Shown here: in pieces, positions 3,821 through 62,665 of the stretch
Position numbering within the stretch: the first letter of the stretch is position 1
Layout: each line of letters begins with the position of its first letter
NCBI GenBank assembly: GCA_900618065.1
Contig: UYIL01000003.1
Location: 1,798,001-1,862,000, forward strand
From: Streptococcus thermophilus
GTDB taxonomy: Bacteria > Actinomycetota > Actinomycetes > Mycobacteriales > Mycobacteriaceae
DNA length: 64,000 bases
Direction of reading: 5' to 3'
Position numbers and translations under genes: made by a program
Notes under the pieces: model-generated
What the model was told of the DNA's origin: nothing
Seen by the model: only the letters and a program-made list of their open reading frames with translations
Database searches by the model: none

Positions 3821-5059
3821 ATGCACTCTTGGCCCGCGCTCTCCGTCCCCGCAGTCGCCGGAACTCTTGTCCCGTTGACCCTTTTTGACACCGCTGACCA
3901 GCAGGTCAAGGAGGTTGACACCACGGCCACGACCAGTGGCGGTGAAATCGGGATGTACGTCTGCGGCATCACGCCGTACGACTCCACGCACCTGGGGCAT
4001 GCGGCGACGTACCTCACGTTTGATCTGGTTCACCGCCAGCTGAACGCCAACGGCCACAGTGTCCATTACGTCCAGAACATCACCGATGTCGACGACCCGC
4101 TGTTCGAGCGCGCCGAGCGCGACGGGGTGGACTGGCGCGAACTTGGTCAGAGCCAGACCGACCTGTTCCGCACCGACATGGAGATCCTGTCCGTCATCCC
4201 CCCGCGCGACTACATCGGCGCGATGGAATCCGTCGATGAGGTCATTGCAATGGTGCAGACGCTGCTGGACAACGGCAGTGCGTATGAGCTCGTCGACGAC
4301 TCCGGTGACCACCCCGTCACCGACATCTACGCGCCCATCACAGCAACCGAGCAGTTCGGCTACGAGTCCAACCTCGACCGCGCCACGATGGAGGACTACT
4401 TCGCCGAGCGCGGTGGCGACCCGGAGCGTACAGGCAAGCGCGACCCGCTGGACGCGCTGCTGTGGCGCGGCCACCGTGAGGGCGAGCCGGCGTGGGAGGC
4501 CCCCTTCGGTGCGGGCCGGCCGGGCTGGCACATAGAGTGCTCCGCTATTGCGACGAATCGTTTGGGAACGCAGTTCGCCATTCAAGGCGGCGGCTCTGAC
4601 CTCGCCTTTCCGCACCACGAGTTCTCCGCGGCCCACGCCGAAGCAGCGTACGACATCCCCCGCATGGCAGGCCACTACGTCCACGCTGGCATGATCGCGC
4701 TCGACGGGGTGAAGATGTCTAAGTCGCTGGGCAACCTCGTCTTCGTGCACAAGCTGCGCGAAGAAGGTCACGACCCATCAGCGATCCGACTTGCCGTGTT
4801 CGGGGGCCACTACCGCGACGACCGCGACTTTTCCAACGTAGTCCTCGAAGATGCAGAACGTCGGCTTTCGGGTTGGCGCGAGACTCTTGCGAATGAGGTG
4901 AGCGAAGCAGAGGCGGTAGGTAGCGTCGATAAGCTGCGTGCTGCTCTCGCGGACGACCTGAACACGCCTGAGGCCCTGCGCATCGTCGACGCTGCGCAGG
5001 GCGACCACAACGGGATCGTTGCAGCTGCGCTCGACGGCTTGCTTGGCGTGCGGGTGTAG
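3821..5059 (+). CDS. mshC: L-cysteine:1D-myo-inosityl 2-amino-2-deoxy-glucopyranoside ligase (mycothiol synthesis)
   Basis: ATP-dependent ligation of cysteine to GlcN-inositol, the third dedicated step of mycothiol synthesis. At 412 residues it fits MshC and is shorter than cysteinyl-tRNA synthetase. Class I synthetase signatures are [18 protein letters not shown] (HIGH-like HLGH) and KMSKS. The zinc ligands Cys in YVCG, Cys in HIECSA and His in FPHHEF are present, and so is the WHIECS segment. In place of the CysRS anticodon domain there is only a short helical tail. Supports an actinobacterial origin. Confidence 0.94.
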
Positions 5060-5083
5060 CGAAACTGCGCCACAATAGCGGGT

Positions 5084-5464
5084 ATGACAATCCGCGATCA
5101 GTTCCAGAGCGACGTCGACGAATTCATCGACGATCTGACCACGTTTGCAACCGGTTCGTACCTGCAGGACAGCGACAGGGAACTGTGGGAAGAGCCGTTT
5201 GACCCGGCTGTCCTGCCGGACCTGAAAGAGCTCATCGAGAAGTACCTCGACGCCCTGGAGATCATCGGCGACGACCCGGACGGGGAGAAGCTGAACTCGG
5301 TCGTGGAACCGTTCTTTGCCAAGCTCGACGAGTTCAACGCCAAGCACGCTGAAGCTGTCCTGGAGCCGGAGGAGAAGTCGGACCTGCAGGACCTTGCGTA
5401 CCGCGCGGCGGCAGCCACCGGCGCTGACGACGAAGCACTCAACTCCCTTCCCGAGCTTGACTAG
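5084..5464 (+). CDS. Small acidic conserved hypothetical protein
   Basis: 126 residues, strongly acidic, predicted helical with no hydrophobic segment or signal, so probably cytosolic. It lies 24 bases after mshC, and the following HAD gene appears to start inside its last codons, so translational coupling is likely. I do not recognise the family and no functional motif is visible. It is placed between mycothiol synthesis and histidine synthesis genes, which gives no firm clue to its role. Confidence 0.7.
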   Translation: MTIRDQFQSDVDEFIDDLTTFATGSYLQDSDRELWEEPFDPAVLPDLKELIEKYLDALEIIGDDPDGEKLNSVVEPFFAKLDEFNAKHAEAVLEPEEKSDLQDLAYRAAAATGADDEALNSLPELD

Positions 5465-6158
5465 CCGCACACCAAGCACTGCGCCGAAGGCCGTGTTCTG
5501 GGACATGGACGGCACGATGGTTGACACTGAGCCGCTGTGGGGCATCGCTACCTACGAGCTCTCAGAGCTGCTTGGCCGCAGGTTAAGCGCAGAAAAGCGC
5601 GAAGAGACTGTCGGCGGTGCCTTTGCGAACACGTTGCGCGTGTGCGCGGAGTGGGCGGGAGTCGAGCTTGTCGACGGTGATTATGACCGCTACCGGTCCT
5701 GGATGTACCAGCGGATGGGCGAATTGCTCGTCGGCGATGTGGAGCCGAATCCCGGCGTGCGCGACCTTCTCGCCTCTCTCAAGGGCGAGGGGATGCGGAT
5801 GCTGGTGACCACGAACACGGAACGTGAACTGGCGGACTACTGCATCGACATCGTTGGCCGGGAGTTCTTCGTCGACTCTGTCACCGGTGATGAGGTGGCC
5901 CAGCCGAAACCGGCGCCAGATATGTATCTGCGCGCCGCAGAGATCGTGGGGGAGGACCCCGTTGATTGTCTCGTCTTCGAGGATTCCTGGGCCGGTATGT
6001 CCGCAGCCGCCACGGCCGGGTGCGTTGTGCTTGGGCTTGCCGACGACGTCCCGGAAGGTGTGGCGCGGTTTGATCCAGCCGAGTTCACCGGAGCCGATGC
6101 GAACGATGTGTCCGCATGGTTCAGCGCTGCCCGGGATCGGATAAAGTATCTCGCGTGA
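5457..6158 (+). CDS. HAD-superfamily phosphatase, beta-phosphoglucomutase-like
   Basis: About 233 residues. All four HAD motifs are visible: [15 protein letters not shown] (nucleophile Asp), VTTNTER (motif II Thr), QPKPAPDMY (Lys) and VFEDSWAG (acidic pair). The helical cap between motifs I and II places it among the PGMB-like phosphatases or mutases. The open frame runs further upstream inside the previous gene. TTG at 5457 is the first start that gives a plausible N-terminus, while GTG at 5493 would remove residues just before motif I. It overlaps hisE by four bases (GTGA). The substrate is unknown. Confidence 0.85.
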
Positions 6159-7310: not shown

Positions 7311-8729
7311 ATGGGCTACAGAACAGAAGAAGATTTGCTCGGTACCGTCGACGTTCCAGACGACAAGTACTACGGCGTGCACACGATGCGCGCGATCGAC
7401 AACTTCCAGATCTCGTCCGCCAAGATCCAGGATTACCCGGATTTTGTTCGCGGTATGGTCATGGTGAAAAAGGCCGCCGCGATGGCCAACCGGCGTTTGC
7501 ACACCCTGCCGAAGGAAAAGGCTGACGCGATCATCGTCGCCTGCGACCAGATTCTCTACGACGGGCGCTGCATGGACCAGTTCCCGATCGACGCTTATCA
7601 GGGCGGCGCGGGCACCTCGGTGAATATGAACACCAACGAGGTCGTGGCCAACCTTGCGCTGGAGCACTTGGGGCACCCGAAGGGTTCCTACGACGTCATC
7701 AACCCGAACGACGATGTCAACATGTCGCAGTCCACCAACGACGCGTACCCGACAGGTTTCCGCCTCGGCCTGCACCAGTCCTTCCAGGGTCTTATCGAGG
7801 AGTTGGACGAGCTGCAGAAGGCCTTCCGCTCCAAAGGCGACGAGTTCCACGACATTCTCAAAATGGGCCGCACCCAGCTGCAGGACGCTGTCCCCATGAC
7901 GCTGGGCCAAGAGTTCACCGCCTTTGGTGCCAATCTCGCCGAGGAGCAAGACAAGCTCCGCCAGGCGGCTGAGTCACTGCTGGAGATCAACCTGGGTGCC
8001 ACGGCAATCGGCACCGGTGTGAACACCCCGGGCGGGTACCGCGATCAGGTCACGGCTGCTCTGCGCGAGGTCACTGGCCTGCCGATCTCTACCTCCCCGG
8101 ATCTCATCGAGGCGACCTCGGACACCGGCGGTTACGTGATGGCGCACTCCGCCTTGAAGCGCGCAGCGATGAAGCTGTCGAAGATCTGCAACGACCTGCG
8201 CCTTTTGTCTTCTGGCCCGCGCGCCGGCCTGAATGAGATCAACCTGCCGGAGCGCCAGGCTGGTTCCTCGATCATGCCCGCGAAGGTCAACCCGGTCATC
8301 CCCGAAGTGGTCAACCAGGTCTGCTTCAAGGTGTTCGGCAACGACGTTACTGTTTCCATGGCCGCTGAGGCCGGCCAGCTCCAGCTCAACGTGATGGAGC
8401 CGGTCATTGCCCGCAGCCTGTTCGGTTCAATTTCTCTGCTGCGCAACGCGGCGAAGACGCTGCGCGAGAAGTGCGTCACCGGCATCACCGCCAACAAAGA
8501 TGTCTGCCAGGGGTACGTGGAGAACTCCATCGGCATCATCACCTACCTCAACCCGTTCATCGGCCATCACAACGGGGACCTGATCGGCAAGGAGGCCGCT
8601 GAGACGGGTCGCGGTGTGCGCGAGCTTGTTCTGGAGAAGGAGCTTCTCGACGAAGAAACGCTCGACAGGATCCTCTCCAAGGAGAACCTCATGCACCCGG
8701 AGTTCCGCGGCAAGCTGTATTTGGACTAG
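7311..8729 (+). CDS. aspA: Aspartate ammonia-lyase (aspartase)
   Basis: Reversible deamination of aspartate to fumarate and ammonia. 472 residues, fumarase/aspartase superfamily. The signature [15 protein letters not shown] is exact and contains the flexible catalytic loop; [12 protein letters not shown] and [12 protein letters not shown] line the active site. The LGATAIGTG segment is also present. The [10 protein letters not shown] and DEEGRSR-free form fits AspA rather than FumC. It is followed by a strong terminator and then by a C4-dicarboxylate transporter gene, which suggests aspartate-driven fumarate supply. Confidence 0.95.
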
Positions 8730-11875: not shown

Positions 11876-12684
11876 GCCTCGGTAACAGAGTCCGCAGCCG
11901 ACCCCGGCCACCCGGGGTACTCCGGCGGTGTCCCGCCGTAGATCGGGCAGAGGGCTTGGAACGAGCACCAGTTGCACAGTTTCGACGGCTTCGGGCGGAA
12001 GTTGCCGGACTGCCCGTCGGATTGAATCTTGTGCCACAGGTCGCCTAAGTCCCGTTCGAAGAATTCGAGTTCTTCCCGCGATGGGGCAAGGAAGAGTGAA
12101 TCAATCACTTTGAGGTACATCAGCCTCAGCTGGTGCGGAATCGTGCCGAACATGCGCCAGTACACCAGTGCGTAGAAACGCATCTGGAACTTCGCTTCGT
12201 CAGAGAAGCGGGGCGAGGGCTTCTTGCCCGTCTTGTAGTCGACAACACGGATTTCACCCGTGGGCGCGATGTCCACGCGGTCGATGAACCCGCGCACGGG
12301 AACACCGTTCGGCAGCACGGCATCGACGTACATCTCTTGGGCGTGCGAGTCGAAACCATGCGGGTTCTCCATCTCGAAGTACCCGCGCAGCAGGGAACGC
12401 GCCGCGACGAAGAGGGCGTATTCGTCGCCGATGGGGTCGGCGCAGGAGGAGTCGTCGATAAGCATCTTCTGCCACGCGGGCTTGATCCGCTTCACCGCGG
12501 CGGGGTAGGTGCGCTCATCACGGGGCCAGGAGTGCATCTCCTCAAGAACAGCATGCACAAGCGTGCCGGTGACCTGCGCTTCCGTCTTCGGTTCCGGGAT
12601 CCGGTCGATCGCGCGGAGGCGATACTTTAGCGGGCATTGCAGGTAGTCGTTGGCGCGCGAAGGGGAGAGGGCAAGCGGTTTCAT
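11872..12684 (-). CDS. RecB/Cas4-like PD-(D/E)XK exonuclease with putative Fe-S cluster
   Basis: 270 residues from the ATG at 12684; a start at 12696 would add four. The nuclease core shows GFIDRVDI (Asp135/138) and VVDYKTGKK with Asp149 and Lys151, the PD-(D/E)XK motif. Four cysteines are placed as in Cas4/AddB-type enzymes: Cys17 in YLQCPLKY and Cys237, Cys240, Cys246 near the C-terminus, so a 4Fe-4S cluster is likely. Stand-alone RecB-like proteins of this form are common in actinobacteria, probably in DNA repair. No cas genes are nearby. Confidence 0.85.
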   Translation of the reverse strand: MKPLALSPSRANDYLQCPLKYRLRAIDRIPEPKTEAQVTGTLVHAVLEEMHSWPRDERTYPAAVKRIKPAWQKMLIDDSSCADPIGDEYALFVAARSLLRGYFEMENPHGFDSHAQEMYVDAVLPNGVPVRGFIDRVDIAPTGEIRVVDYKTGKKPSPRFSDEAKFQMRFYALVYWRMFGTIPHQLRLMYLKVIDSLFLAPSREELEFFERDLGDLWHKIQSDGQSGNFRPKPSKLCNWCSFQALCPIYGGTPPEYPGWPGSAADSVTEA

Positions 12685-12710: not shown

Positions 12711-14725
<2,015 letters not shown>

Positions 14726-14734
14726 GCTGGAGCC

Positions 14735-16228
14735 ATGAACGATGCCGACCTCCGCGAGCTGAAACAGCAGAACCAGGCTCTCTCCGCGCGCAATAAGCAG
14801 CTCGCGGAGATGCTGAAGGTCTCCCGCGATAAGCTCAAGGACCTTTCCGCGCAGGTCGACGAGCTGTCCGAGCCGGCGTCGACGTACGGCATCTACCTCG
14901 CCCCAGCGCGCCGCGGGCAGGAAGCGGAGGTATTCACCTCAGGCCGCCGAATGCGTCTGAAAGTTTCGCCGCATATTGAGCCGGGCACGCTCACCCCCGG
15001 CGGGCTGGTGCGTCTTGGCGAAGGGTCGATCGTTGTGGAGGCGGCCGGGTTCCCCAGGGCCGGTCAGCTGGCAACCCTGTCGGAGAAGATCGGGTTTGAC
15101 CGCGCCATCGTCGCTGACATGCAGGGCGCGGAGCAGGTCGTCCACCTTGCAGAGAATGTTCGCGCCAAGGCCCGCGCGGGGGACACCGTGCTTATCGACG
15201 CAAAAGCGGGCTACGCCTTCGAACGCATCCCCAAAACAGAGGTGAATCAGCTATCCCTCGAAGAGATTCCCGACGTCACCTACGCCGACATTGGCGGCCT
15301 GCGGGACCAGATCGAGACGATCCGGGATTCTGTCGAGCTGCCGTTCACGCACCCGGAGCTGTACAAGGCTTACGACTTGAAACCGCCGAAGGGGCTGCTG
15401 CTGTACGGCCCGCCGGGTTGCGGCAAGACGTTGATCGCCAAAGCAGTCGCGAACTCGCTGTCGACTCGTATCGGCGACGGGGGAGCGGCGCACTTCCTCA
15501 ACGTCAAGGGCCCGGAGCTGCTGAATAAGTACGTCGGTGAGACAGAGCGCTGCATCCGCCTCATCTTCGAGCGCGCCCGCGAACTCGCCGGCGAAGGACG
15601 ACCCGTCATCGTCTTCTTCGACGAGATGGAGTCAATCTTCCGCACCCGCGGATCCGGCGTGTCCTCCGACATGGAGACGACCGTCGTCCCGCAGTTGCTT
15701 ACGGAGATTGACGGAGTGGAGGACATCGCCAACGTCATCGTCATCGGCGCCACCAACCGGGAAGAACTCATCGACCCGGCGATCCTGCGCCCCGGCCGCC
15801 TGGACATCAAGATCCGTGTGGACCGCCCCACGCGGGAGGAGGCCCGCGAGATCTTTGCTCGCTACATCACCGATGACGTTCCGCACGCGGAGGAGGTGAA
15901 AGATCTGGTGAACGCGGGCGTCGATAAGCTCTTTGCACCTCGGCCATTCGTGCAACTCACGCTTATCGACGGCACCACCGAAACCCTCCACTACTCCGAC
16001 TTCGTCTCCGGCGCGATGATCGCCAACGTCGTCGACCGTGCGAAAAAGCTGGCCATTAAGGATGAAATTTCGGGCGCGGGTTCGGGAGTTTCCGTCGCGC
16101 ACGTGCGCGCCGCCGTACGTGCCGAGCAGGACGAGAGCGAGGACATGCCGAACGTGTCTAACCCGGACGAATGGGCGCGCATTTCGGGCCGCACTGGCAA
16201 GCGGGTCGTGGCTGCTGAGGTGCTGTAG
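14735..16228 (+). CDS. arc: AAA ATPase of the Pup system (ARC/Mpa), no proteasome-docking tail
   Basis: 497 residues. An N-terminal coiled coil (about 1-48) captures Pup; two OB-type domains follow, then one AAA module with Walker A GPPGCGKT, Walker [11 protein letters not shown] and an arginine-finger segment [12 protein letters not shown]. Mycobacterial Mpa ends in a QYL tail that opens the 20S gate. This protein ends in ...VVAAEVL, lacking that tail, which fits corynebacteria without a proteasome. It probably unfolds or extracts pupylated proteins. It starts nine bases after trmI. Confidence 0.95.
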
Positions 16229-16847: not shown

Positions 16848-18236
16848 TTAAAGGGCCGGATTGCCCGCAAGAGCTCGAAGGACAATGTCGAAGTCGTGGT
16901 CGCTGAGGTGCGCGAAGCTCATGATCAATCCTTCCGCGCGCCCATCTCCACTCGACCACAGTGACTCAAGGCGGCCGCATTCGATCCTATGTGACCGAAG
17001 CTTTTCAGTGAACTGGCCACGGCGGGCAGATGAGTCGAAGCTCAGCGTGAGATCCACTCCGTTCGACTCGGCCATTTCATTGACGTGTGCGCCGCTGGCC
17101 TCGAGCACCGGAACGAGATCCGTGTGGATGATCGCCCGCCGACGCGCCAAACGGTTACGGACGGCTTTCGTGTTCCGGCGGACATGTCCGTTCTGAAGTA
17201 GATGCGCGACGGCTAGCTGTGTGACCGCGGATACGGGCATGCCGAGGACCTTCCGCGTCTGCCGCACACTTTCAGCGAATGCTGGGGGAGTGACCACGTA
17301 CCCGGCAGAAAGGTTGCGGCTGAGCAGAGTGGAAAAGGTTCCCAGCGTGAACACATCGCCCTGGCTAGTGAGAGCACCCAGCGGCGGCTGCGGGGCAAGG
17401 CGGTAGCGCAGCTCAGCATTGAAGTCGTCCTCGATCAGGGCTGTGCCACTCTCATGCGCCCACGTGAGCAGTTCGGACCGGCGAGCAGCCGGCATCGATG
17501 CGCCGAGCGGGTATTGGAAGGCCGGCGTGACCAGCAGCGCATCTAGTTTATCGGGCAAGAGTCGGACGTTCACGCCGAACTCGTCGACGGCGCATGGGAC
17601 CGCGTCGTGCCCGGCAGTCGGGATGACGCGGCGTAACCCTGGATGGCCAGGATCCTCGACACCGACTCTCAACTGGCGGTGACGCCGCACGAGGGTGAGC
17701 AGGATGAGCAGGAGACCCTCGCGCGAACCTCCGGTGACGACGATCTGGTTCTCGCTCACCGTCAGGCCGCGGGCAAGGCGCAGATGCCCGGCGATCGCAC
17801 GACGGAGTTCAGGCTGACCGGCGGGGTCGATGGAGATGGCCGGTTCAGCTGCCGCTTCCCGCCAAGCCTGTCGCCATGCAGCCGGACGGACCCCGCCAGC
17901 GTGACCCGATGACGGCTTCAACGAGATCGTCCGGTGCGACGGTTCAACTTTTGGCCGAAAAGAAGGTGCTTCGGCATCGCTTGGCGTACCCGCGGGCAGA
18001 TCAGGGTGCACCCGCGTCGGCGACCCCTGCGAGGCCAGCAAGTACCCTTCGCTGATGAGCTGGTCGTACGCCGTGACCACACTCCCGCGCGAAATCCCCG
18101 CCACCTTTGCCAGCTCCCGCGTCGACGGCACCTCGTCCCCAGGCTGCAGTTCCCCGTCAGTGATGGCTGTGCGGATGGCGGTTGCTACTTGCGCGGGGAG
18201 GGGGATGGGGAGGTCACGGGAAACGTCGATAAGCAT
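16848..18236 (-). CDS. pdxR: MocR-type (GntR + aminotransferase) regulator, PdxR
   Basis: 462 residues. An N-terminal GntR winged helix (about 1-75, with PSTRELAKVAGISRGSVVTAYDQL) is fused to a fold-type-I aminotransferase domain that binds PLP; FNAELRY and LGTFSTLLSRNLSAGYVV correspond to the PLP-site region. In C. glutamicum PdxR activates the pyridoxal-phosphate genes. Here it is divergent from pdxS with a 79-base gap containing direct repeats, so control of pdxS is likely. ATG start. Confidence 0.9.
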   Translation of the reverse strand: MLIDVSRDLPIPLPAQVATAIRTAITDGELQPGDEVPSTRELAKVAGISRGSVVTAYDQLISEGYLLASQGSPTRVHPDLPAGTPSDAEAPSFRPKVEPSHRTISLKPSSGHAGGVRPAAWRQAWREAAAEPAISIDPAGQPELRRAIAGHLRLARGLTVSENQIVVTGGSREGLLLILLTLVRRHRQLRVGVEDPGHPGLRRVIPTAGHDAVPCAVDEFGVNVRLLPDKLDALLVTPAFQYPLGASMPAARRSELLTWAHESGTALIEDDFNAELRYRLAPQPPLGALTSQGDVFTLGTFSTLLSRNLSAGYVVTPPAFAESVRQTRKVLGMPVSAVTQLAVAHLLQNGHVRRNTKAVRNRLARRRAIIHTDLVPVLEASGAHVNEMAESNGVDLTLSFDSSARRGQFTEKLRSHRIECGRLESLWSSGDGRAEGLIMSFAHLSDHDFDIVLRALAGNPAL

Positions 18237-19369: not shown

Positions 19370-20869
19370 ATGACGCGCTTCATGGGAACCGAAACCGAGT
19401 ACGGCATTCTCACGCCCGATAATCCGAGCCTGAGCCCGATTGTGAGCTCGACGCACGCGGTGGTGGCTTACGCGGCGATGCACACAGCCGCCCGCGCGCG
19501 CTGGGATTACCAGGACGAGCACCCGCTCAAGGACTCGCGCGGGTTCGATCTGAAGCGCTACCAGACCGTTCCCATCGTCGACCCCAACGCGATCGGGGTG
19601 GCCAATGTGGTCACGGAGAACGGGGCGCGGTTCTATGTGGATCACGCGCACCCGGAGTACTCGTCACCTGAAGTGCCGGACGCGTTCAGCGCCATGCTTT
19701 ACGACGCTGCCGGCGACCACGTCCTCAACCACGCCGCCGCCCGGATTGCCGAGCTATGGGAAGACGGTGTCTCAGTGCTGAACGGCCACGACCCCTGCCC
19801 GCCGCTGAAACTGTACAAGAACAACGTGGATGGCAAGGGGGCGTCGTTCGGGTCGCACGAGAACTACCAGTACTCGCGTCAGACCCCATTTGAGGCAATC
19901 GCTGAGGGTTTGATCCCGTTCTTCGTGACCCGCCACGTCTTTGCTGGCGCGGGCCGCATGGGACTGGGGGAAGCGGGGGAGCAGGACGGATTCCAGATCT
20001 CCCAGCGGGCCGACTACTTCTTCCAGGAGGTCTCGCTGGAGACCACCCTTAACCGCGGCATCATCAACACCCGCGACGAACCGCATGCGGATGCGACCCA
20101 GTTCGGTCGGCTGCACGTCATCATCGGTGATGCGAACATGTCGCAGTACGCCAACCTGCTCAAATTGGGCACGACGAAAATGGTCCTGGACGCGATCGAA
20201 GAGGGAGTCGACTTCTCCGATCTGCAACTCAAGGAACCGGTTGAGGAACTGAAGCGGGTGTCCCGTGATCTGGGCCTGACGCACCAGCTCGGGCTCAAGG
20301 ATGGCCGGGCGCTGACGGCACTGGCGATTCAGCGCGAGTACCTGGCACGCGTCACGCCCGAAACAGATGTGGACAGGCAGGTTGTGGCGCTATGGGAAGA
20401 GATCCTGGACGATCTTGAGCGCGACCCGCTGTCTACCGCGGACCGTCTCGACTGGACAGCGAAGTGGGAGCTGATCAAGGGTTACCTCGATCGTGGAATC
20501 GACATCGGTAACGCCAAGCTCAAAGCTGTGGACCTTCAATACGCCGACATCGATCCGGACAAGTCGCTCTACCACGCGCTGATTCGGGCTGGACGGATGA
20601 AGACATTGGTCAGCCAGGAGGACATCGCCCGGGCTGCGGCCACACCGCCAGAGAACTCCCGGGCGTATTTCCGCGGCAGGATCGCGAAGGAATTCGGTGA
20701 AGACGTCCTCTCTTCGAGTTGGCAGACCATCCAGTTCAACACTGCCGCCGGGGCGCGGTCTGTCTCCATCCACGCAGTGGACGGATTCACGCGCGATGAT
20801 GTCGGTGAGTTGCTGGACCGTGCGGCATCCGTGGATGAGATTGTCGCCGCTTTCAACGAGAACCCATAA
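19370..20869 (+). CDS. dop: Pup deamidase/depupylase Dop
   Basis: 499 residues, carboxylate-amine/glutamine-synthetase-like fold. Converts the C-terminal Gln of Pup to Glu and also removes Pup from targets. The N-terminal FMGTETEYGI carries the metal-binding Glu residues; VDHAHPEYSSPE carries the catalytic Asp. The Dop-specific loop (KDSRGFDLKRYQ) that PafA lacks is present and separates the two paralogues. First gene of the dop-pup-pafA-pafB-pafC cluster. Confidence 0.96.
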   Translation: MTRFMGTETEYGILTPDNPSLSPIVSSTHAVVAYAAMHTAARARWDYQDEHPLKDSRGFDLKRYQTVPIVDPNAIGVANVVTENGARFYVDHAHPEYSSPEVPDAFSAMLYDAAGDHVLNHAAARIAELWEDGVSVLNGHDPCPPLKLYKNNVDGKGASFGSHENYQYSRQTPFEAIAEGLIPFFVTRHVFAGAGRMGLGEAGEQDGFQISQRADYFFQEVSLETTLNRGIINTRDEPHADATQFGRLHVIIGDANMSQYANLLKLGTTKMVLDAIEEGVDFSDLQLKEPVEELKRVSRDLGLTHQLGLKDGRALTALAIQREYLARVTPETDVDRQVVALWEEILDDLERDPLSTADRLDWTAKWELIKGYLDRGIDIGNAKLKAVDLQYADIDPDKSLYHALIRAGRMKTLVSQEDIARAAATPPENSRAYFRGRIAKEFGEDVLSSSWQTIQFNTAAGARSVSIHAVDGFTRDDVGELLDRAASVDEIVAAFNENP

Positions 20870-21075: not shown

Positions 21076-22490
21076 TGACGGTGTATCCGCGCCGCATCAT
21101 GGGCGTGGAAACGGAATTCGGCCTGACCGCCATCCGGGACGGCAAGGCGGTTCTGGGGCCCGAAGAGATCGCGCGCTACTTGTTCAAGCCAGTCGTGGCC
21201 CAGTACAAGAGCACGAACATCTTCACCGAGAACGCGGCCCGTCTGTATCTCGATGTCGGTGCGCACCCGGAGTATGCGACAGCAGAGTGCGATTCGCTCA
21301 CCCAGTTGCTCAACCACGACAAAGCGGGGGAGGTGCTGTTCACCGATCTCGCCGCCCAGACGGAAAAGACCCTCGCAGCCGAAGGCATCGGCGGCGACGT
21401 GTACCTGTTCAAGAACAACGTCGACTCCGCAGGCAACTCCTACGGCACGCACGAGAACTACCTGATCAGCCGAGAACTGTCGCTGAAGAACTTCGGCATG
21501 CGGTTGCTGCCGTTCCTGATCACCCGGCAACTACTCTGCGGTGCGGGCATGATCAAGAACGGTCGTTTCCTCATCTCGCAGCGCGCCGATCAGGTGTGGG
21601 AGGGAGTCTCGTCAGCAACGACGAGGACACGCCCGATCATCAACACCCGCGACGAACCCCACGGGGATTCGAGCCGCTTCCGCCGCATGCATGTCATCGT
21701 CGGCGACTCGAACATGGCGGAGCCCTCCTTCGCTCTCAAGATCGGCTCCACGCAGCTGGTCATCGAAATGCTCGAAGCGGACTGGGACATTCCGGCTTTC
21801 GACATCGCCGATCCGATCAAGCACATCAAACAGATCGCACTCGACCCGACCGGCCAGACAGAACTCGCGCTCAAAGACGACACCACAGTGACCGCGCTCG
21901 AGGTCCAGCAGGGCGTCCTCGAGGCTGCGAAGGGCTGGCTCGCCCAGCGGCCGAACGAAGGCACGCCGAACACAGAGCTGGAGAAGGTCGTGGAGCTGTG
22001 GGGCAGGACACTCGCGGCCATCGAGACCCAGGACTTTGAACCCGTCGCTGGCGAGATTGATTGGGTGATCAAGCGCAACCTCCTCGAACGCTACCGCGAC
22101 CGTTTGGGCGGCGACTGGAACCACCCGAAGCTCGCCCAGATCGACTTGGCCTACCACGACATCAACCTGCGCCGCGGGCTGTTCTACCACCTGCAGAACA
22201 AGGGCCTTGTGAAGCGGTGGACTACCGATGACGCGATCGCCCACGCGGCGACCAACGCGCCGGAAACCACGCGAGCGACCCTGCGCGCACAGTTCTTGGA
22301 CACGGCGCGCGAGCTGGGCGCCCACTACACCGTCGACTGGGTGCACATGAAGGTCGACCGTCCGGAACCGCAGACGGTGGATGCGCAGGATCCGTTCGCG
22401 ACGGAGGACGCAGGCGTCGATAAGCTCGTGGCGTACATGCACAACAACCGCGAGGTGCTTGGTAACGCACAAGGGGGAATCCGTGGCTAA
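21075..22490 (+). CDS. pafA: Pup-protein ligase PafA
   Basis: 471 residues, paralogue of Dop. ATP-dependent isopeptide bond formation between Pup-Glu and substrate lysines. The N-terminal RRIMGVETEFGLT carries the metal-binding Glu residues; YLDVGAHPEYATAECD carries the catalytic Asp; KNNVDSAGNSYGTHENYL and TRPIINTRDEPHGD are family motifs. The Dop loop is absent. It directly follows pup (one-base overlap) and overlaps pafB by eight bases. Confidence 0.97.
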   Translation: MTVYPRRIMGVETEFGLTAIRDGKAVLGPEEIARYLFKPVVAQYKSTNIFTENAARLYLDVGAHPEYATAECDSLTQLLNHDKAGEVLFTDLAAQTEKTLAAEGIGGDVYLFKNNVDSAGNSYGTHENYLISRELSLKNFGMRLLPFLITRQLLCGAGMIKNGRFLISQRADQVWEGVSSATTRTRPIINTRDEPHGDSSRFRRMHVIVGDSNMAEPSFALKIGSTQLVIEMLEADWDIPAFDIADPIKHIKQIALDPTGQTELALKDDTTVTALEVQQGVLEAAKGWLAQRPNEGTPNTELEKVVELWGRTLAAIETQDFEPVAGEIDWVIKRNLLERYRDRLGGDWNHPKLAQIDLAYHDINLRRGLFYHLQNKGLVKRWTTDDAIAHAATNAPETTRATLRAQFLDTARELGAHYTVDWVHMKVDRPEPQTVDAQDPFATEDAGVDKLVAYMHNNREVLGNAQGGIRG

Positions 22491-23427
22491 CGACGTGCGA
22501 GTGATCCAACGGCTGACCAATCTCACGTTCGCGTTACTGGGGTCGAACAAGCCACGTGACATGGAGTGGATCCGCAAGCATGTTGACGGCTACGAAGACA
22601 AGACGGATACCGCCATGGCGCGCATCCTCAAGCGCGATGTCCAATCATTGCGCCGGGCTGGCGTTCCCGCACGCAGTGAGAACGGGCTGGTCTGGGTGAA
22701 TAAAGACTCCTACGAACTCCCGCCGATCAGCTTCACCGAGGAAGAAGCGTATGTGTTGGGGTTGGCGGGGGACCTGGGGACATCGGGAAGCTTGGGCGCG
22801 TTCGCGCGCTCCGGGTGGACCAAGATCGCCGCGAGCGGTGCAACGCGGGCATTTGACGATGCTCCGATTAGCGCGCTGGACAACGACATTTCCCGGCTCG
22901 ACACTGATGTCGTTGCGGCCGTGACCGCGTGCGTGCGTTCCCGCACCCGGATGCGCTTCACGTACCAGCCGTCCCCGACGTCGCCGCCGCAGACGCGCAC
23001 GATGGACCCGTGGGGGCTCATCGCGCTGAACAACCGCGCCTACGTCGTCGGCTACGACGTGGAACGCGAGGCTGGACGCAGTTTCCGAGCGGTGCGCGTC
23101 AGCGATGTCCGGAAAGTACGTGACGTGCCCGCAGGGGATTTCCACCTGCCAGACCGTCCGGTCCAGCAGATCGTTAAGGATTCCCTGCGCGGCCCCACGG
23201 TGGAAGAAGCGGTGGTGCGCGTTGACCCGGGAACGGCGGGGGAGCTCGTCGCGAAAGCTACAGATCTCGGTGATAACCGTTTCCGTCTCGTCGACGTGGA
23301 GCGTGACTGGCTGGTGCGCACCGCGGCCAGCTTCGCTCCGCATGCGGTGGTGGAGTTGCCGGGGGACGTGCGCGAGGACGTCGTCAAGCTATTGAGCGCG
23401 ACTCAGGAGGCGCAGAATGAAAGATAG
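22483..23427 (+). CDS. pafB: WYL-domain transcriptional regulator PafB
   Basis: 314 residues. An N-terminal winged helix (RVIQRLTNLTFALLG ... MEWIRKHVDGY) precedes a WYL domain (RMRFTYQP, WGLIALNNRAYVVGYD) and a WCX C-terminal part. With PafC it forms the PafBC activator of the mycobacterial DNA-damage response, independent of LexA; it is not needed for pupylation itself. GTG start with AAGGGGGA upstream; the frame is open further back inside pafA. Overlaps pafC by 11 bases. Confidence 0.92.
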   Translation: MANDVRVIQRLTNLTFALLGSNKPRDMEWIRKHVDGYEDKTDTAMARILKRDVQSLRRAGVPARSENGLVWVNKDSYELPPISFTEEEAYVLGLAGDLGTSGSLGAFARSGWTKIAASGATRAFDDAPISALDNDISRLDTDVVAAVTACVRSRTRMRFTYQPSPTSPPQTRTMDPWGLIALNNRAYVVGYDVEREAGRSFRAVRVSDVRKVRDVPAGDFHLPDRPVQQIVKDSLRGPTVEEAVVRVDPGTAGELVAKATDLGDNRFRLVDVERDWLVRTAASFAPHAVVELPGDVREDVVKLLSATQEAQNER

Positions 23428-46772: not shown

Positions 46773-47629
46773 TCTCTCTGTCGCGCCAGCGGTGGAACGC
46801 CCTCGCCGAAGCCCATGACCGCCGCGCCCGCCAGTGGGTCGAACCGCACCTTGCGCGCCGCAGCCGCGGTGAAAAGCATCCGATCTGGGACTTTCTCTTT
46901 GACTACTACCCTGTCCGCCCCACGCACCTCACGCGCTGGCACCCGGGCCTCGGTACAGAGCTTATCGACGCTTCTGACGCCCCACACACCTCCTGGCGCG
47001 ACTATCAGCTCAACCCTGACGGCACAGTCGCGCTCGATCTCGACTCGTTTCTTGCCCACCGGCGCTCCGATATGGAAAATATTCGCGCCCTTTTGAACGC
47101 TATCGGTGACAACCGCCCGCAGTTCGACTGCTTCGGTTTGCACGAGTGGGCCATGGTTTACGAAACCCAAAAACCACGTCATGACATTCCGTTGCGGTTA
47201 GGGCGGGAGGGCACTAATGACGTCGTCAAGCAGCACGACCTGAAATGCACCCACTTTGACGCCTACCGCTTTTTCACTGCCCCTGCGAAGCCGCTCAATC
47301 TGACGGTGCTGGACTCAAATACCCGCCATGCGCACGACCAATGCGGATGCCTGCACGTGGGCATGGACCTGTACAAATGGGCAACGAAGATGGGGCCAAT
47401 CGTGCCCGGCGAGTTGATGCTCGACTGCCTTGAGCTGGCGATGGACATTCGCTTGCTCGATATGGAGGCTTCCCCGTATGATTGCCAAACGCTAGGCTAT
47501 GGTGTCGTGCCGATTGAGACCCCGGAGGGTAAAGCGGAGTACGTGGCGAGGCAACGCGAGCTCTCCGTCCGCGCGGAACCTCTGCGACACCGGCTCCTAG
47601 TGTTTCTTGACGCTGCATTAACCGGATAA
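46769..47629 (+). CDS. Conserved actinobacterial protein, often named 3-methyladenine DNA glycosylase
   Basis: 286 residues. Homologues are widely labelled as 3-methyladenine DNA glycosylase, but no helix-hairpin-helix or AlkA/MPG motif is visible. Instead there are conserved-looking clusters: HDLKCTHFDAYRFF, HAHDQCGCLHVGMDLYKW and LLDMEASPYD. The His/Cys/Asp pattern would suit a metal or cofactor site. It is cotranslated with the second CNNM gene. I regard the function as unknown. Confidence 0.7.
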   Translation: MISLSRQRWNALAEAHDRRARQWVEPHLARRSRGEKHPIWDFLFDYYPVRPTHLTRWHPGLGTELIDASDAPHTSWRDYQLNPDGTVALDLDSFLAHRRSDMENIRALLNAIGDNRPQFDCFGLHEWAMVYETQKPRHDIPLRLGREGTNDVVKQHDLKCTHFDAYRFFTAPAKPLNLTVLDSNTRHAHDQCGCLHVGMDLYKWATKMGPIVPGELMLDCLELAMDIRLLDMEASPYDCQTLGYGVVPIETPEGKAEYVARQRELSVRAEPLRHRLLVFLDAALTG

Positions 47630-51705: not shown

Positions 51706-54003
51706 CTACCGAAACACGCTGGCAATGCCAGAGATCACGGAGTTTCCTCCCCCAGCAAGAGGATTGTCGGAGACCATGTACGTCCACGTTGCACTCGGAC
51801 GCTTCCAGCCGGCATCGGCGAGGTGAGCCCCGTCACCGTCAACAAGCACATGCTCAAACGTCTCCACCGCGCGGTCTACAGCGCGTTGCGCGAGCTCTTT
51901 GAATTCCCGCACGGCAATCCGGTGATACTCAGTCAGCGGAGTCTCGCGCGCAATGGCCCGCAGGTGGATCGATTCGCGGACATCATCCATGTGGGCGAGG
52001 TGCTCGGACCATTCGTCGTCGAGGTGGAAAAGCATGATCTCACGTGCGGCCTGCACGAGCACATGCTTATCGACGCCCGCAGCTTCCACCTCCGCAGCCT
52101 TCTCCGGCGCACGCTGTGACAGTTCGACCCACGCACGGTCAGTATCCAGGAGAATTGCGCGGCGTTCGTCGATAATTGCCCGATGGTCCGCGAGCAGCTG
52201 GTTGTACTTCCAGGTCTGCGCATGGATCTCCAGGAGCTGTCCTTCGGTGACGCGCTGGCAGTGGGCCACAAAGTCGTGGACGCGCTTCGCTTCCACCCTC
52301 CCGTCCGGGCCTGGTTGTGCAGTGATCTTCTCATCAGCGCCACCTGCGGTGATGATGTCGTCTTCGAGGGAGACGAAAAACAGACTCAAACCTGGGTCAC
52401 CCTGGCGCCCCGCGCGCCCGCGAAGCTGATTGTCCAGGCGCGCCGTGCGGTGGCGCGCCGTGCCGATGACAGCAAGACCGCCCATTTCTGCGACCTCATC
52501 GTGATCAGCCTCATCAGCGCCACCTAGGCGGATGTCGGTGCCGCGGCCGGCCATCTGCGTCGACACTGTCACGCGACCAAGATCGCCGGCTTCAGCCACG
52601 ATGCGCGCTTCCTCCGCGTCGTTTTTCGCGTTGAGGACATTCACCCCGATGCCGCGCTCACTTAGGGCATCCGCGAGGGCCTCTGACTCGGCGACATCAT
52701 GCGTGCCCACTAGCACCGGCTGGCCCGTTTCGTTGATGTGCGCAATCTCCTCAACGATCGCCGTGAATTTCTCGCTCATGGTGGCGTAAACGCGATCCTG
52801 TTCGTCGAAACGCTGCAACGGCTTGGCCCGCTCAATGACCGAGACCCGCAGGTCGTAGAACTGACGGAGCTGGTCCGTGGCCTCCACCGCTGTACCGGTC
52901 ATGCCGCACACGAGCGGGTAGCGGCGCATAAGCGCTTGGAGAGTGATGGAATCAAGGATCCGGCCGCCTTCACTGACATCCAAGCCTTCCTTGGATTCGA
53001 CTGCCGCCTGCAGGCCGTCGGGCCACCGCTGCAGTTCGGCGACACGACCACGGGAGGCGTCGACGAGGTCGATCTTGCCGTCCTGCACGATGTAGTGGAC
53101 ATCGCGAATGAGCAGCGCCTTGGCATGCAACGCGAGGTTGACACGCACGAGAATGGTGCCGATGTTCTCGTCCGAGTACAGCGAGTCGATACCGAGAGCT
53201 TTCTCCACCTTCGCGGCACCGCCGTCAGTGAGAAACACATTGCGGCGGTCCGAATCGATCGTGTAGTCGATTCCCTCCCTCAAGTGGGACACGGCCTCCG
53301 TGATTTGCCCGGTCGCCTGCTCCCCCGGTTTGGAGCCGGCGAGGACCAGCGGGACCAGAGCTTCGTCGACAAGCACACTATCCGCTTCGTCGACAAGCGC
53401 GACATCAGCTGGTGCCTGCACTGTCTGGCTGCGGTGCGTGACCTGGTTATCCCGCAGGTGATCGAAGCCAATTTCCGCGACCGGAGCGTAGACGACATTT
53501 GCCCTGTAAGCCCCGACTCGCTCTTCGCGGGCGGTGGATTCAGTGACGTATCCAACGCTTAAACCGAAGAACTCGACAAGCGGGCGCATCCACTCTGCGT
53601 CACGCTGCGCGAGGTAGTTGTTCACCGTGATGACATGCACGCGCTTGCCGGTGAGCGCGAAACCGGTGGCAGCCATGGCGCCTACAAGCGTCTTGCCTTC
53701 GCCAGTGGCCATCTGGATCACATCGCCTTCGAGCAGGCGCAGCACCGCTTGATTCTGCACGTTGAATGGGGTCATCCCCAACGTGCGGGTTGAAGCCACA
53801 GAAAGAACCGCTAAAAACTCTGGCTTCTTCTGAATCTGCCCATCCACGACGGTTGCCCGGATCTCTGCGGCGAGTTCCGCGTCGCCGAGCCCCCTGTACA
53901 CGGGGATGAGCTCGTGCGCGGAAGCGACAATGCCCTTCGACTTCTTGTCGTTTCGCTCGGACGTGGAGCCCATCGCTTTCCAGAACCAGTCAAACTTGCC
54001 CAT
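51706..54003 (-). CDS. secA2: Accessory Sec ATPase SecA2
   Basis: 765 residues, shorter than housekeeping SecA1. Walker A MATGEGKTLVGA, LVDEADSVLVDEA, the preprotein cross-linking region and TQMAGRGTDIRLGG are in place. The C-terminal zinc-binding SecB site is missing, which fits actinobacterial SecA2. It exports a subset of proteins, often without classical signal peptides. It lies upstream of odhI on the same strand, as in mycobacteria. The upstream region contains tRNA-Pro on the other strand. Confidence 0.94.
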   Translation of the reverse strand: MGKFDWFWKAMGSTSERNDKKSKGIVASAHELIPVYRGLGDAELAAEIRATVVDGQIQKKPEFLAVLSVASTRTLGMTPFNVQNQAVLRLLEGDVIQMATGEGKTLVGAMAATGFALTGKRVHVITVNNYLAQRDAEWMRPLVEFFGLSVGYVTESTAREERVGAYRANVVYAPVAEIGFDHLRDNQVTHRSQTVQAPADVALVDEADSVLVDEALVPLVLAGSKPGEQATGQITEAVSHLREGIDYTIDSDRRNVFLTDGGAAKVEKALGIDSLYSDENIGTILVRVNLALHAKALLIRDVHYIVQDGKIDLVDASRGRVAELQRWPDGLQAAVESKEGLDVSEGGRILDSITLQALMRRYPLVCGMTGTAVEATDQLRQFYDLRVSVIERAKPLQRFDEQDRVYATMSEKFTAIVEEIAHINETGQPVLVGTHDVAESEALADALSERGIGVNVLNAKNDAEEARIVAEAGDLGRVTVSTQMAGRGTDIRLGGADEADHDEVAEMGGLAVIGTARHRTARLDNQLRGRAGRQGDPGLSLFFVSLEDDIITAGGADEKITAQPGPDGRVEAKRVHDFVAHCQRVTEGQLLEIHAQTWKYNQLLADHRAIIDERRAILLDTDRAWVELSQRAPEKAAEVEAAGVDKHVLVQAAREIMLFHLDDEWSEHLAHMDDVRESIHLRAIARETPLTEYHRIAVREFKELAQRAVDRAVETFEHVLVDGDGAHLADAGWKRPSATWTYMVSDNPLAGGGNSVISGIASVFR

Positions 54004-56994: not shown

Positions 56995-57786
56995 ATGGAC
57001 CCCAGCCCCACCCCACGCAACTTCAAACCCAGCACAAAAGAGATGCCGGGTTTCCGCGATGCTGCCACCCGCAGGCACACGGCGGGCGCGTTTGCCTCCG
57101 GGGCGCAGCTTTACGACGCCACACGCCCCTCCTACCCCACCGCCGTCCCCGGGCTCATCGAGACGGTGGGGAACGTGCTGGACCTCGGTGCGGGAACGGG
57201 AAAGCTCACCGAGCTGCTCCTAAAGCCAGACCGCACCGTGTATGCCGCAGACCCCTCCGACGACATGCTCAGGGTTTTGCGTGCACGCATCCCAGTAGTG
57301 CACACCGTTCGAGCAGTTGCTGAGGCACTGCCCCTCGCCGACGGCTCGGTTGATGCCGTCACCTGCGCCCAAACCTGGCACTGGGTCGACACCGCGGCGG
57401 CCAGCGCGGAGGCCCACCGGGTTGTAGTACCCGGCGGTGAGCTTCTCCTGTGCTGGAACACTCTCGACGTGTCACACCCTTGGGTCCTGAGGCTTTCCCG
57501 GATCAGTCACTCGGGGGATGTGCAGAGGGAAGGGTTCTATCCCGACGTCGATAAGCGATGGGCCCTGAAGCGCGAACTGCGTACCAAATGGTTCGCAGCC
57601 GTGACCACGGACGACCTGTTCGCGCTCGCACGCACGCGTTCATATTGGCTGCGGGCGAGCGAGGCCACGCGCGCAAAAGTAACCGACAATCTCCGGTGGT
57701 ACCTCTTCGATCGTCTCGGCTTCGATGAAGGCCAGCCCATTCCCCTGCCCTATCGCACGGATGCATTCGTGTATGAGCGGCGCTAG
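56995..57786 (+). CDS. Class I SAM-dependent methyltransferase
   Basis: 263 residues. Methyltransf-11-like domain: motif I VLDLGAGTGKLTELL (about 61-75), motif II VYAADPSDDMLRVL, and VVVPGGELLLCWN. Similar to yeast TMT1/crg1-type methyltransferases that act on small acids. No partner is visible: the gene is divergent from the esterase lipoprotein. The 11-mer repeat GCTTATCGACG follows its stop by three bases. Confidence 0.85.
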   Translation: MDPSPTPRNFKPSTKEMPGFRDAATRRHTAGAFASGAQLYDATRPSYPTAVPGLIETVGNVLDLGAGTGKLTELLLKPDRTVYAADPSDDMLRVLRARIPVVHTVRAVAEALPLADGSVDAVTCAQTWHWVDTAAASAEAHRVVVPGGELLLCWNTLDVSHPWVLRLSRISHSGDVQREGFYPDVDKRWALKRELRTKWFAAVTTDDLFALARTRSYWLRASEATRAKVTDNLRWYLFDRLGFDEGQPIPLPYRTDAFVYERR

Positions 57787-57959
57787 TAGCTTATCGACGC
57801 CCCGACCTTTTCGAACGAATACTGAATCGCAAGAGGCCATAGCCTCGGAGTAGAACACGCATTCGAACTGTACATAGTTTTCGGGGTTGGTTGGTACACC
57901 CGTTTGCAAGAATGTTCACATAGCTGGATGGAGACACTTAACGCGGGCGGGGAGACGTG
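57787..57959. other. 173-base intergenic region before the HNH gene
   Basis: It begins with the 12-mer repeat GCTTATCGACGC (57789-57800) and ends with a GGGGAG ribosome site. Two TTCGAAC/GTACAT-type AT-rich stretches may hold the promoter, but I cannot assign boxes with confidence. No coding signal seen. Confidence 0.4.
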
Positions 57960-60433: not shown

Positions 60434-60436
60434 GAC

Positions 60437-61165
60437 TTACTGCTGCTCCGACAACTTCTCGATGTTGAAGAAGGCGAGGATCTCGTCGGTCACGTCGATC
60501 CCCCGGCCCCTGGCCCATATCCCTGAGGGCCATTCGTGGCTCATGCCCTCCACTGGGATGTGCACTGTGCGAGCAGTATCGCCATTTCGGCGTTCAAAGG
60601 CGGCGACGACGTCGGGGGCTGGCATGATTGTGCCCAGAACTCCACGGTCTTGGCCCATGTAGGGAACAACGTCGTCCCAGGTGCCGTGAATGTTCATGTA
60701 GTCGATCGGAGTGCCTTGCTCGAGCAGATTCTTGTCGACTCGAATCGCGCCGGAGACGGTAGCGACTCCGGCGTAGGCACTGGGATCGTTCACAGCGAGC
60801 ACGGTGACAAAGCCGCCGCCGTTGGAAAACCCGACCAGATACACTCGCTCTGGGTCGACGGGGTAGGTGGCGATGATGTCGTCACGGATGGCGTGAATCA
60901 GTGCGGTGTCTTCCTCGACCGTCGTCACGGCGTAGGGCGCGGGGCTCCACGCTAGACCACGCCCGGTCGGCGCAGCGACAATCGCTTTGGCGGCACCAAG
61001 CCCCGTGCCCACGAGGAAGTCATGCCCGTTGTCACCCTTACCGTGAATCGCCAGAATGACCGGTAGCTTGTCCGCATCTAAGGTGACTGGAACAGAGCAC
61101 TGGTAGGTGTGGTCGACCCCATCGACTGTGACGGTGCGGGTGATACGGCGTGACTGTCCGGTCAT
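60437..61165 (-). CDS. Cytosolic PHB-depolymerase-like esterase (copy 3)
   Basis: 242 residues with no signal or lipobox. Matches copy 2 in core order: ILAIHGKGDNGH, VYLVGFSNGGGFV (Ser) and VEGMSHEWPSG (His), with WSPAPYAVTTVEEDTALIHAI almost as in copy 2 (WAPAPYADTTVEEESEFIEAI). So this is a duplicate of copy 2 without the lipoprotein part. It lies nine bases after der on the same strand. Substrate unknown. Confidence 0.85.
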   Translation of the reverse strand: MTGQSRRITRTVTVDGVDHTYQCSVPVTLDADKLPVILAIHGKGDNGHDFLVGTGLGAAKAIVAAPTGRGLAWSPAPYAVTTVEEDTALIHAIRDDIIATYPVDPERVYLVGFSNGGGFVTVLAVNDPSAYAGVATVSGAIRVDKNLLEQGTPIDYMNIHGTWDDVVPYMGQDRGVLGTIMPAPDVVAAFERRNGDTARTVHIPVEGMSHEWPSGIWARGRGIDVTDEILAFFNIEKLSEQQ

Positions 61166-61174
61166 GACGTCTCC

Positions 61175-62665
61175 TTATTTGCGGGGCTTACGTTCACGCA
61201 CGCGGACGGCGATGCGCACCGGGGTGCCGTGATAGCCGAATTGCTCACGGAACTTTCGCTCGAGGTACCGGCGGTACCCGCCGTCGAGGAAGCCCGTGGT
61301 GAACAGAACGATGGTCGGCGGGCGTGTGGACACCATCGTGGCAAAGAGCACCTTGGGCAAGCGGTTGTTCTTCATCGGCGGCGGGTTCGCGGCGATCGCG
61401 TCCCGCATCCAGTTGTTCAGCTGGCCGGTGGAGATGCGCCTGTCCCAGTTCTCCAGCGCCGTGATCATCTCCTTCTCTAGGCGATGCAGGCCACGACCTG
61501 TATCCGCGGAGATGTTGATCTTGGACACCCACGGAAGGTGGTCGAGCTGCATGTCGAATTCGCGGTCGAAGTAGTACCGGCGGTCCTCGTCCATCAAGTC
61601 CCACTTGTTGAACGCGATGACCATTGCTTTACCGGCGTCGAGCACCATGCTGATGACGCGCTGGTCTTGCTCGGTGATCTCTTCGGAGGCGTCGATAAGC
61701 ACAACGCACACTTCGGCGGCGTCGATCGTGCCGCGGGTGCGCAAAGACGCGTAGTACTCGTGTCCTTCCGCGTTCTTGACCTTCTTGCGCAGACCAGCGG
61801 TGTCGATGAAACGCCACAGTTTCTGGTCAAGCTGAATGAGCTCGTCGACAGGGTCGACGGTCGTGCCCGCGACATTATCGACGACTGCGCGGTCCGACTT
61901 CGACAGCTTGTTCAGCAGCGAAGACTTGCCGACGTTCGGCTTTCCGACGAGCGCAACCCTGCGCGGCCCTTCCGTGATCGAATGAGCGGACTTCGGCTCC
62001 TCCGGGAACGACTTCACGATTTCATCGAGAACGTCGGCACCGCCGCGGCCGTGCAGCGCCGATACGGGCCATGGATCACCGAGACCGAGCGAATAGAACT
62101 CGGCGACGTCCGCCCACTGGGACTCGGACTCGAACTTGTTGGCCACGAGGATCACGGGAACCTCAGAGCGCTGCAGGTTGTTCGCCATGACAGCGTCCGA
62201 TTCGGTGACACCGACATGGGAGTCAACGACCATGACAATGACATCGGCGTCAGCCATCGCCGCTTCCGACTGGTGCGCGATGGAGGCGTGAATGCCCTTC
62301 GCGTCCGGATCCCAGCCACCGGTGTCCTGCACCCAGTACCGCTGGCCGTTCCAGTCCGACAGGTAACTCACGCGGTCACGGGTCACACCAGGGTGATCCT
62401 CCACAACAGCTTCACGACGGCCAAGGAACCGGTTGACCAACGTGGACTTGCCCACGTTTGGTCGGCCGACAATAGCCACCGTCGGCAAAGCTTCTTCGAG
62501 GTGTCCATCGGCGGTGAGACCGAAAGCTTCCTCTACTTCCGCCCATTCTTCTTCGGTCAGGTCATCGTCAGAAAAATCGGAATCGGACTCCGGCTCACCG
62601 TAATCAGCTTCAGCGAAATCACCCTCGAAGAACTCGATCTCGTCTTCATCGTGTGGATGCGTCAC
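61175..62665 (-). CDS. der: Ribosome-assembly GTPase Der (EngA)
   Basis: 496 residues. Two GTPase domains in tandem: GRPNVGKST with DTGGWDP and NKFE, then GKPNVGKSS with DTAGLRKK and NKWD, and the C-terminal KH-like domain. An acidic N-terminal ~60-residue extension is typical of actinobacteria. Acts in 50S maturation. Overlaps cmk by four bases (GTGA), the conserved cmk-der pair. Confidence 0.96.
   Translation of the reverse strand: MTHPHDEDEIEFFEGDFAEADYGEPESDSDFSDDDLTEEEWAEVEEAFGLTADGHLEEALPTVAIVGRPNVGKSTLVNRFLGRREAVVEDHPGVTRDRVSYLSDWNGQRYWVQDTGGWDPDAKGIHASIAHQSEAAMADADVIVMVVDSHVGVTESDAVMANNLQRSEVPVILVANKFESESQWADVAEFYSLGLGDPWPVSALHGRGGADVLDEIVKSFPEEPKSAHSITEGPRRVALVGKPNVGKSSLLNKLSKSDRAVVDNVAGTTVDPVDELIQLDQKLWRFIDTAGLRKKVKNAEGHEYYASLRTRGTIDAAEVCVVLIDASEEITEQDQRVISMVLDAGKAMVIAFNKWDLMDEDRRYYFDREFDMQLDHLPWVSKINISADTGRGLHRLEKEMITALENWDRRISTGQLNNWMRDAIAANPPPMKNNRLPKVLFATMVSTRPPTIVLFTTGFLDGGYRRYLERKFREQFGYHGTPVRIAVRVRERKPRK

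Follow-up and report, generated by a model that had tools for sequence, protein, structure and literature searches.

Why does one 11-nucleotide word recur so often, on both strands, in a stretch of DNA whose genes are unrelated? The stretch is a window of 64,000 nucleotides, the whole of the DNA analyzed here (contig UYIL01000003.1, positions 1,798,001 to 1,862,000), in which a first-pass annotation had noticed the word GCTTATCGACG. Judged by its sequence, the window is Corynebacterium DNA; its arc protein matches those of C. sp. p3-SID1145 and C. urinipleomorphum at 86% and that of C. sp. Marseille-P3884 at 85%. Uptake sequences are known from the Neisseriaceae and Pasteurellaceae. We estimate a probability of about three in four that the motif to which the word belongs, GCTT-NN-CGA[C/T]G-N-C, is a Corynebacterium DNA-uptake sequence for natural transformation.

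A recount agreed with the reported 18 exact copies, nine on each strand. All of them are present in the span given for them (4923..61700), although the first begins one base later, at 4924. The claimed over-representation holds against every expectation that we calculated. Chance would yield 0.05 copies according to dinucleotide shuffles and 0.26 according to an order-4 Markov model. Genes contain 16 copies, compared to a mean of 0.93 and a maximum of 4 in 200 codon-preserving shuffles, in which synonymous codons were permuted inside each gene (gene calls were made by a simple script of our own). The excess persists in the genes of C. glaucum and Marseille-P3884. As the annotation had observed, the word has more than one reading in genes: Leu-Ile-Asp in nine sense copies and Val-Asp-Lys in seven antisense copies. 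The genes holding these copies are unrelated, and protein motifs common to them do not account for the word. The other two copies are intergenic, where the annotation had placed them; the copy at 37006 falls between gene calls, and that at 57789 begins on the third base past a gene ending at 57786.

The contiguous 11-mer is real, but it belongs to a gapped motif, which the first-pass annotation missed, and is the most frequent form of that motif. In 400 kb of C. glaucum (genome G005), forms substituted at positions 1–4 or 7–11 occur at or near the codon-shuffled background, so nine of the 11 positions are intolerant to base change. Positions 5 and 6 are tolerant: AT occurs 67 times (1.9 expected), GT 39 (2.9) and GA 28 (1.5), and CT (14, with 1.1 expected) and TT (12, with 0.5 expected) also exceed expectation. 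Therefore, the element is GCTT-NN-CGACG. It has 40 copies in the window, one per 1.6 kb, and 31 of these are in gene calls, where 3.87 are expected (maximum 9 in 60 codon shuffles). The corresponding numbers in C. glaucum genes are 204 and 16.3. When 80 kb of C. glaucum were scanned without bias for gapped words, the sub-form GCTTA-N-CGACG ranked first, followed by GCTT-NN-CGACG (56 copies versus 2.75).

The flanks of the motif in C. glaucum show preferences of their own. C stands two positions downstream at a frequency of 0.66 where the motif is outside gene calls (67 copies) and 0.64 within genes (309 copies), where the excess partly reflects codon periodicity. A G directly upstream is disfavored (0.07), and T is preferred at position -2 outside genes (0.57). 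Even spacing of the sites was rejected for the window, as 30% of random placements are equally even; there is weak evenness in genome G003 (4% of random placements).

Genome-wide counts were made in relatives of the window, namely 24 named Corynebacterium genomes and then 242 genomes of the genus. The 13 closest of the named genomes (2.0–2.6 Mb) have 186–679 exact copies on both strands. C. glaucum has 499, C. urinipleomorphum 529 and C. riegelii 285. Five named genomes have 26–353 copies (G014, G015 with 31, G017, G020 and G022), and six have 0–7 (C. mendelii, C. marambiense, C. meridianum, C. phoceense, C. jeikeium and sp. HMSC08A12). The reversed-order pattern of the word occurs 0–4 times per named genome. 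Twenty outgroup actinobacterial genomes have 0–3 exact copies, and two Corynebacterium metagenome-assembled genomes (G099 and G231) have three each. At least 20 exact copies are present in 164 of the 242 genus genomes, excluding those with a variant, dialect B, that is described below. Strand counts are nearly equal in most carriers, but some differ (166/123 in G163, 32/58 in G169).

The gapped CGACG form, which we call dialect A, occurs 945–1901 times per genome in 12 strong carriers, while its reversed pattern occurs 46–119 times. C. glaucum has 1553 gapped copies and Marseille-P3884 has 1535. Scans for contiguous k-mers overlooked gapped carriers such as G076, and eight genomes that seemed motif-less by the exact 11-mer have 532–1901 gapped copies. 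G078 and G091 are A carriers by gapped count. Together with G090, G175, G176 and G238, they have 1444–1901 gapped sites, only 2–4 of them in the AT form; these AT-poor carriers are a sub-dialect at positions 5–6. Weak counts among genomes classed by the 11-mer are found in G208 (285 gapped copies), G178 (115) and G185 (127). About 45 genomes have no motif above or near background.

Dialect B was found de novo in G025, both as the top 11-mer and as the top gapped motif. Although this genome has only eight exact A copies, GCTTGCCGATG is the 11-mer with the strongest over-representation in it (31 copies versus 1.3 in 200 kb). The B word has 133–478 exact copies in 14 of the 242 genomes, including C. 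phoceense, and its gapped form GCTT-NN-CGATG has 490–1337. The excess over codon shuffles holds for dialect B in G025 and for dialect A in the window, G005 and G003. CGACG copies number only 26–97 in 13 of the 14 B genomes, and eight exact-A genomes that we retested have 37–59 CGATG copies. Both gapped forms were counted in 80 genomes, and a count of 300 or more for each form was seen in G047 alone (352 CGACG and 1337 CGATG). Therefore, the two dialects nearly exclude each other while differing at one fixed position. They have a common core, GCTT-NN-CGA-Y-G, and the same nine intolerant positions. Four genomes exhibit a weak B signal of 159–223 CGATG copies (G051, G055, G165 and G191).

One genome, G036 (2.0 Mb; loci L146-L148, L157 and L159-L173), has neither dialect; instead, ATGACGYCGCG occurs 644 times in it, with copies on both strands. 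The fuller motif is T.ATGACG[CT]CGCG, and its core has at most 42 copies in each of 67 other genomes. We considered whether it is a dialect of the first motif. A hand alignment on TT..YGAYG.C looked good, but a position weight matrix comparison picked another alignment and gave no gain over column shuffling (0.108), so the idea is not supported; the motif may or may not belong to the same system. Gapped scans of samples of 20–100 kb from the remaining sampled non-carriers, in some of which repeats were dominant, revealed no clear uptake-like motif. The word CGACGCCACC occurs seven times in 60 kb of G031 (L149-L151) and eight times in 60 kb of G232 (L136-L138), where about 0.6 are expected; it may be a further short word where the main motif is missing. 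G044 (L119-L121) has dispersed repeats that center on ATTCGCCGGAGGATCC and GGCTC-N7-CTCGG.

A TopA tree of 19 genomes places its four B genomes together in one clade of five (support 100/99) nested among A genomes. The fifth member, G066, lacks the motif, and the four motif-less genomes in the tree require four separate changes. This suggests that the motif was lost repeatedly in the genus, with gains also possible. The annotation had proposed to look at orthologous positions in relatives, and ten of the 18 window sites could be aligned, giving 129 cells (L001-L024). The 11-mer is retained in 12 cells; 17 differ by one base, eight by two and 73 by at least three, and 19 have indels. The single differences lie at position 5 (13 cells), position 6 (1), position 4 (2) and position 1 (1). 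That 14 of the 17 are at positions 5–6 indicates, on the evidence of these alignments, that sites turn over by point mutation and not by insertion of an element. A mobile repeat was ruled out, because the flanks are unrelated and the differences between orthologous sites are point changes.

The first-pass annotation had offered four explanations (a DNA-uptake-like, Chi-like, nucleoid-protein or methyltransferase motif) without choosing among them. A more mundane account is that the word simply follows from codon usage or from motifs that the proteins share. It is true that all 16 gene copies in the window encode Leu-Ile-Asp or Val-Asp-Lys. However, the codon-preserving shuffles rule out such an artifact, not only in the window (0.93 versus 16) but also in C. 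glaucum (2.4 versus 67), where 11 of the 67 copies are in other frames, and two window copies are not in genes at all; this account has practically no chance of being correct. A polar site resembling Chi or the FtsK-orienting polar sequences (KOPS), recognized by FtsK or a recombination helicase-nuclease, would likewise be short, asymmetric and frequent across the chromosome. Such a role is hardly plausible. In a 400-kb sample of C. glaucum, the one genome used for this test, with its terminus placed from sampled GC skew, 141 sites are leading and 122 lagging (p=0.27), and density from origin to terminus (79, 71, 51 and 62 per 100 kb) does not rise (p=0.085). Thus, the mapping to origin and terminus that the annotation had suggested revealed no bias, and its Chi-like option is disfavored. 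Moreover, the motif is absent or altered in sister lineages, though all of them need recombination and segregation.

HIP1 of cyanobacteria is a palindromic octamer that is very abundant over the chromosome. The Corynebacterium motif is also a very abundant short word, broadly spread, on both strands and mostly inside genes, and might be kept by a comparable but undefined process, perhaps involving a methyltransferase, a nucleoid protein or mismatch repair. By contrast with HIP1, it is non-palindromic and gapped, and it has exclusive dialects differing at one fixed position; we know of no comparable dialects of HIP1 and of no methyltransferase site of the form GCTT-NN-CGACG. The methyltransferase and nucleoid-protein options do not by themselves account for dialects that exclude each other and for the repeated loss of the motif within one genus, and we consider a HIP1-like word unlikely. 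A self-mark, by which a defense system spares tagged DNA, could also yield hundreds of copies and lineage dialects, but this idea is speculative, and we regard it as very improbable. Inverted-pair terminators were rejected because close neighboring pairs are rare among the exact sites of the window, the G005 sample and 80 kb of G003.

An uptake sequence is preferred because, of the kinds of motif known to us, it best fits the combined evidence: the motif is abundant, lies on both strands, has dialects, is repeatedly absent and turns over by point mutation, and the genomes have competence genes. In comparisons of sequences, the uptake-like option is well supported by density, both-strand use, dialects and genus-wide spread. 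In many species of the genus, the genome contains hundreds of copies of a short tag, in different dialects, by which DNA of their own kind would most likely be recognized and taken up. We infer preferential uptake, a receptor, a link to a pilus and molecular drive. A DNA receptor on the cell surface, which probably belongs to a Tad/Flp pilus or is attached to one, would bind double-stranded DNA bearing the motif, and the bound DNA would be drawn in and handed to ComEA and ComEC. DprA and RecA would then recombine it into the chromosome. Copies of the motif would first arise by point mutation and then be spread by recombination (molecular drive). As tagged fragments would be taken up preferentially, copies would accumulate to between hundreds and about 1900 on both strands, within genes as well as between them. 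A shift in receptor preference would create a new dialect, and where uptake is lost the motif would decay. The proposed path, on which the motif is linked to the pilus and the pilus to ComEC, draws on Micrococcus luteus and Neisseria.

Genes for such machinery are present in the hosts: ComEC is in 241 of 242 Corynebacterium genomes, and DprA is in all 80 tested. The order comEA-comEC-holA occurs at the ComEC locus in all five genomes viewed (holA was named by our own reading), and profile matches confirmed comEA and comEC of C. glaucum. The strict Tad comparison is favorable: of 184 carriers, 161 have at least two T2SSF (TadB/C) matches, the best with E at or below 1e-8, compared with 17 of the 47 non-carriers (odds ratio 12.4, p=5e-12), in a comparison that sets aside five weak and six untested genomes and classes most A carriers by the exact 11-mer only. 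Most Corynebacterium genomes have two T2SSF matches, which we took as one tadB-tadC pair. A flp-like gene is present in 18 of 20 loci around a T2SSF match. In G114, NCBIfam confirmed ssd, tadA, a tadE-like gene and the neighboring helicase, while a second tadE-like gene fell below its cut-off. There was no NCBIfam match for tadB and flp of G114 or for tadC of G066, which were assigned by position and the T2SSF search.

Several observations weigh against an uptake sequence. ComEC, which C. glutamicum has as well, and DprA fail to distinguish the genomes with the motif from those without it and, being universal, were rejected as discriminators. The Tad contrast shrinks to 162 of 184 versus 28 of 47 at a loose cut-off (at least two matches, E at or below 1e-3), and its statistics ignore kinship. 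Four carriers (G003, G202, G194 and G176) have no T2SSF match, and three non-carriers, G066 (L188), G143 (L190) and G234 (L192), have all seven tracked tad genes; therefore, neither need for nor sufficiency of the tad locus is supported. According to simple gene calls, the full seven-gene set occurs in only one carrier among the 20 loci. In Neisseria, the uptake receptor is the minor pilin ComP; no receptor candidate emerged here, where no ComP-directed search was made. Nor was depletion seen in phage-like stretches: TerL matched in three of 60 carriers, and the seven stretches taken around terminase genes, whose phage borders are unmapped, have 14 exact sites in 136 kb, where about 14 are expected. 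Since this count matches the genome average, phage stretches lend no support to uptake. Four terminase loci of 3.3 kb have no exact site. Close inverted pairs are rare, with two neighboring pairs less than 150 bases apart in the window, the G005 sample and 80 kb of G003; one more pair, 47 bases apart, is in G067 (L203). Finally, judged by titles and the beginnings of abstracts, natural transformation in Corynebacterium is unreported among the matches listed. The three tad-complete, motif-less genomes (G066, G143 and G234) are good comparison partners for the receptor gene.

The resemblance to established systems is partial. Like the DNA uptake sequences (DUS) of Neisseriaceae, as excerpts of PMC3630211 describe them, the motif is short and asymmetric, with very many copies and with lineage dialects around a common core. 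However, the Corynebacterium sequence is a different one, has a tolerant two-base gap, is known here from sequence alone and occurs in an actinobacterial host with Tad/Flp genes. In copy number it is similar to the uptake signal sequence (USS) of Pasteurellaceae, with about 1300 copies in H. influenzae according to part of PMC5217627. Weak flank preferences beside the core are a further likeness; by contrast, the sequence differs, and inverted terminator pairs, common for the Haemophilus USS, are rare in Corynebacterium. Micrococcus luteus, also an actinobacterium, has tad genes plus comEA/comEC, and its transformation needs Flp pili, as described in sections of PMC4322843. According to these sections, M. 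luteus requires two tad clusters, whereas the two T2SSF matches of most Corynebacterium genomes read as one pair. The term “uptake sequence” is absent from the main text of that paper.

The exact copies in the window are distributed as follows. On the forward strand, they lie at 13031..13041 in an M18 aminopeptidase gene (the same 11-mer is at the equivalent place in L001, L002 and L003), 15190..15200 and 15961..15971 in arc, which encodes a proteasome ATPase (seven relatives have the GT form at the latter site), 27233..27243 in a Hel308/Ski2-like helicase gene (previously annotated as helY), 29404..29414 in an M24 peptidase gene, 37006..37016 (intergenic), 46960..46970 in an open reading frame without a Pfam match, 52065..52075 in a SecA-family gene (previously secA2) and 57789..57799, directly past the stop of a methyltransferase gene. 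That gene holds a reverse-strand copy at 57546..57556. The other reverse-strand copies are at 4924..4934 in mshC, 12453..12463 in a PDDEXK nuclease gene, 15919..15929 in arc, 18224..18234 where the pdxR gene starts, 22415..22425 in pafA, 27815..27825 in the same helicase gene, 42581..42591 in gnd (6PGD) and 61690..61700 in der (engA).

The remaining gapped copies in the window have other bases at positions 5–6. Those on the forward strand are GCTTTGCGACG at 950..960, GCTTCCCGACG at 3569..3579, GCTTGTCGACG at 5666..5676 and 42377..42387, GCTTGCCGACG at 6035..6045 and 14674..14684, GCTTCTCGACG at 8642..8652, 24031..24041 and 40819..40829, GCTTTACGACG at 19696..19706, 31519..31529 and 57108..57118, GCTTTCCGACG at 61939..61949 and GCTTCACGACG at 62409..62419. 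On the reverse strand, we found GCTTGACGACG at 23379..23389 and 47221..47231, GCTTTTCGACG at 30264..30274 and 43678..43688, GCTTCTCGACG at 37726..37736 and GCTTGTCGACG at 53364..53374, 53388..53398 and 62919..62929.

Tags of this kind have so far been described, as far as we found, only in two Gram-negative groups; the abstract of PMC7811141 names two families with uptake sequences, Neisseriaceae and Pasteurellaceae. We found no earlier report of the motif among the matches listed, judged by titles and the beginnings of abstracts, in a search that did not extend to preprints or most subscription journals. We lean, with less assurance than for the uptake sequence as such, towards a wider interpretation: a third, independently evolved uptake system, in mycolate-envelope actinobacteria, which works via Tad/Flp and not a type IVa pilus, has at least two sexually isolating dialects and possibly has a wholly replaced word in one species. 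In Neisseriaceae, uptake-sequence dialects block interspecies transfer (excerpts of PMC3630211). A Gram-positive third case would mean that self-tagging of DNA evolves repeatedly, probably with another pilus. Many Corynebacterium species would be predicted to be naturally competent, now or recently, which would offer a simple route to the genetics of species that are hard to transform. The origin, change and loss of dialects would then become testable over about 240 sequenced species, including many close pairs with and without the motif.

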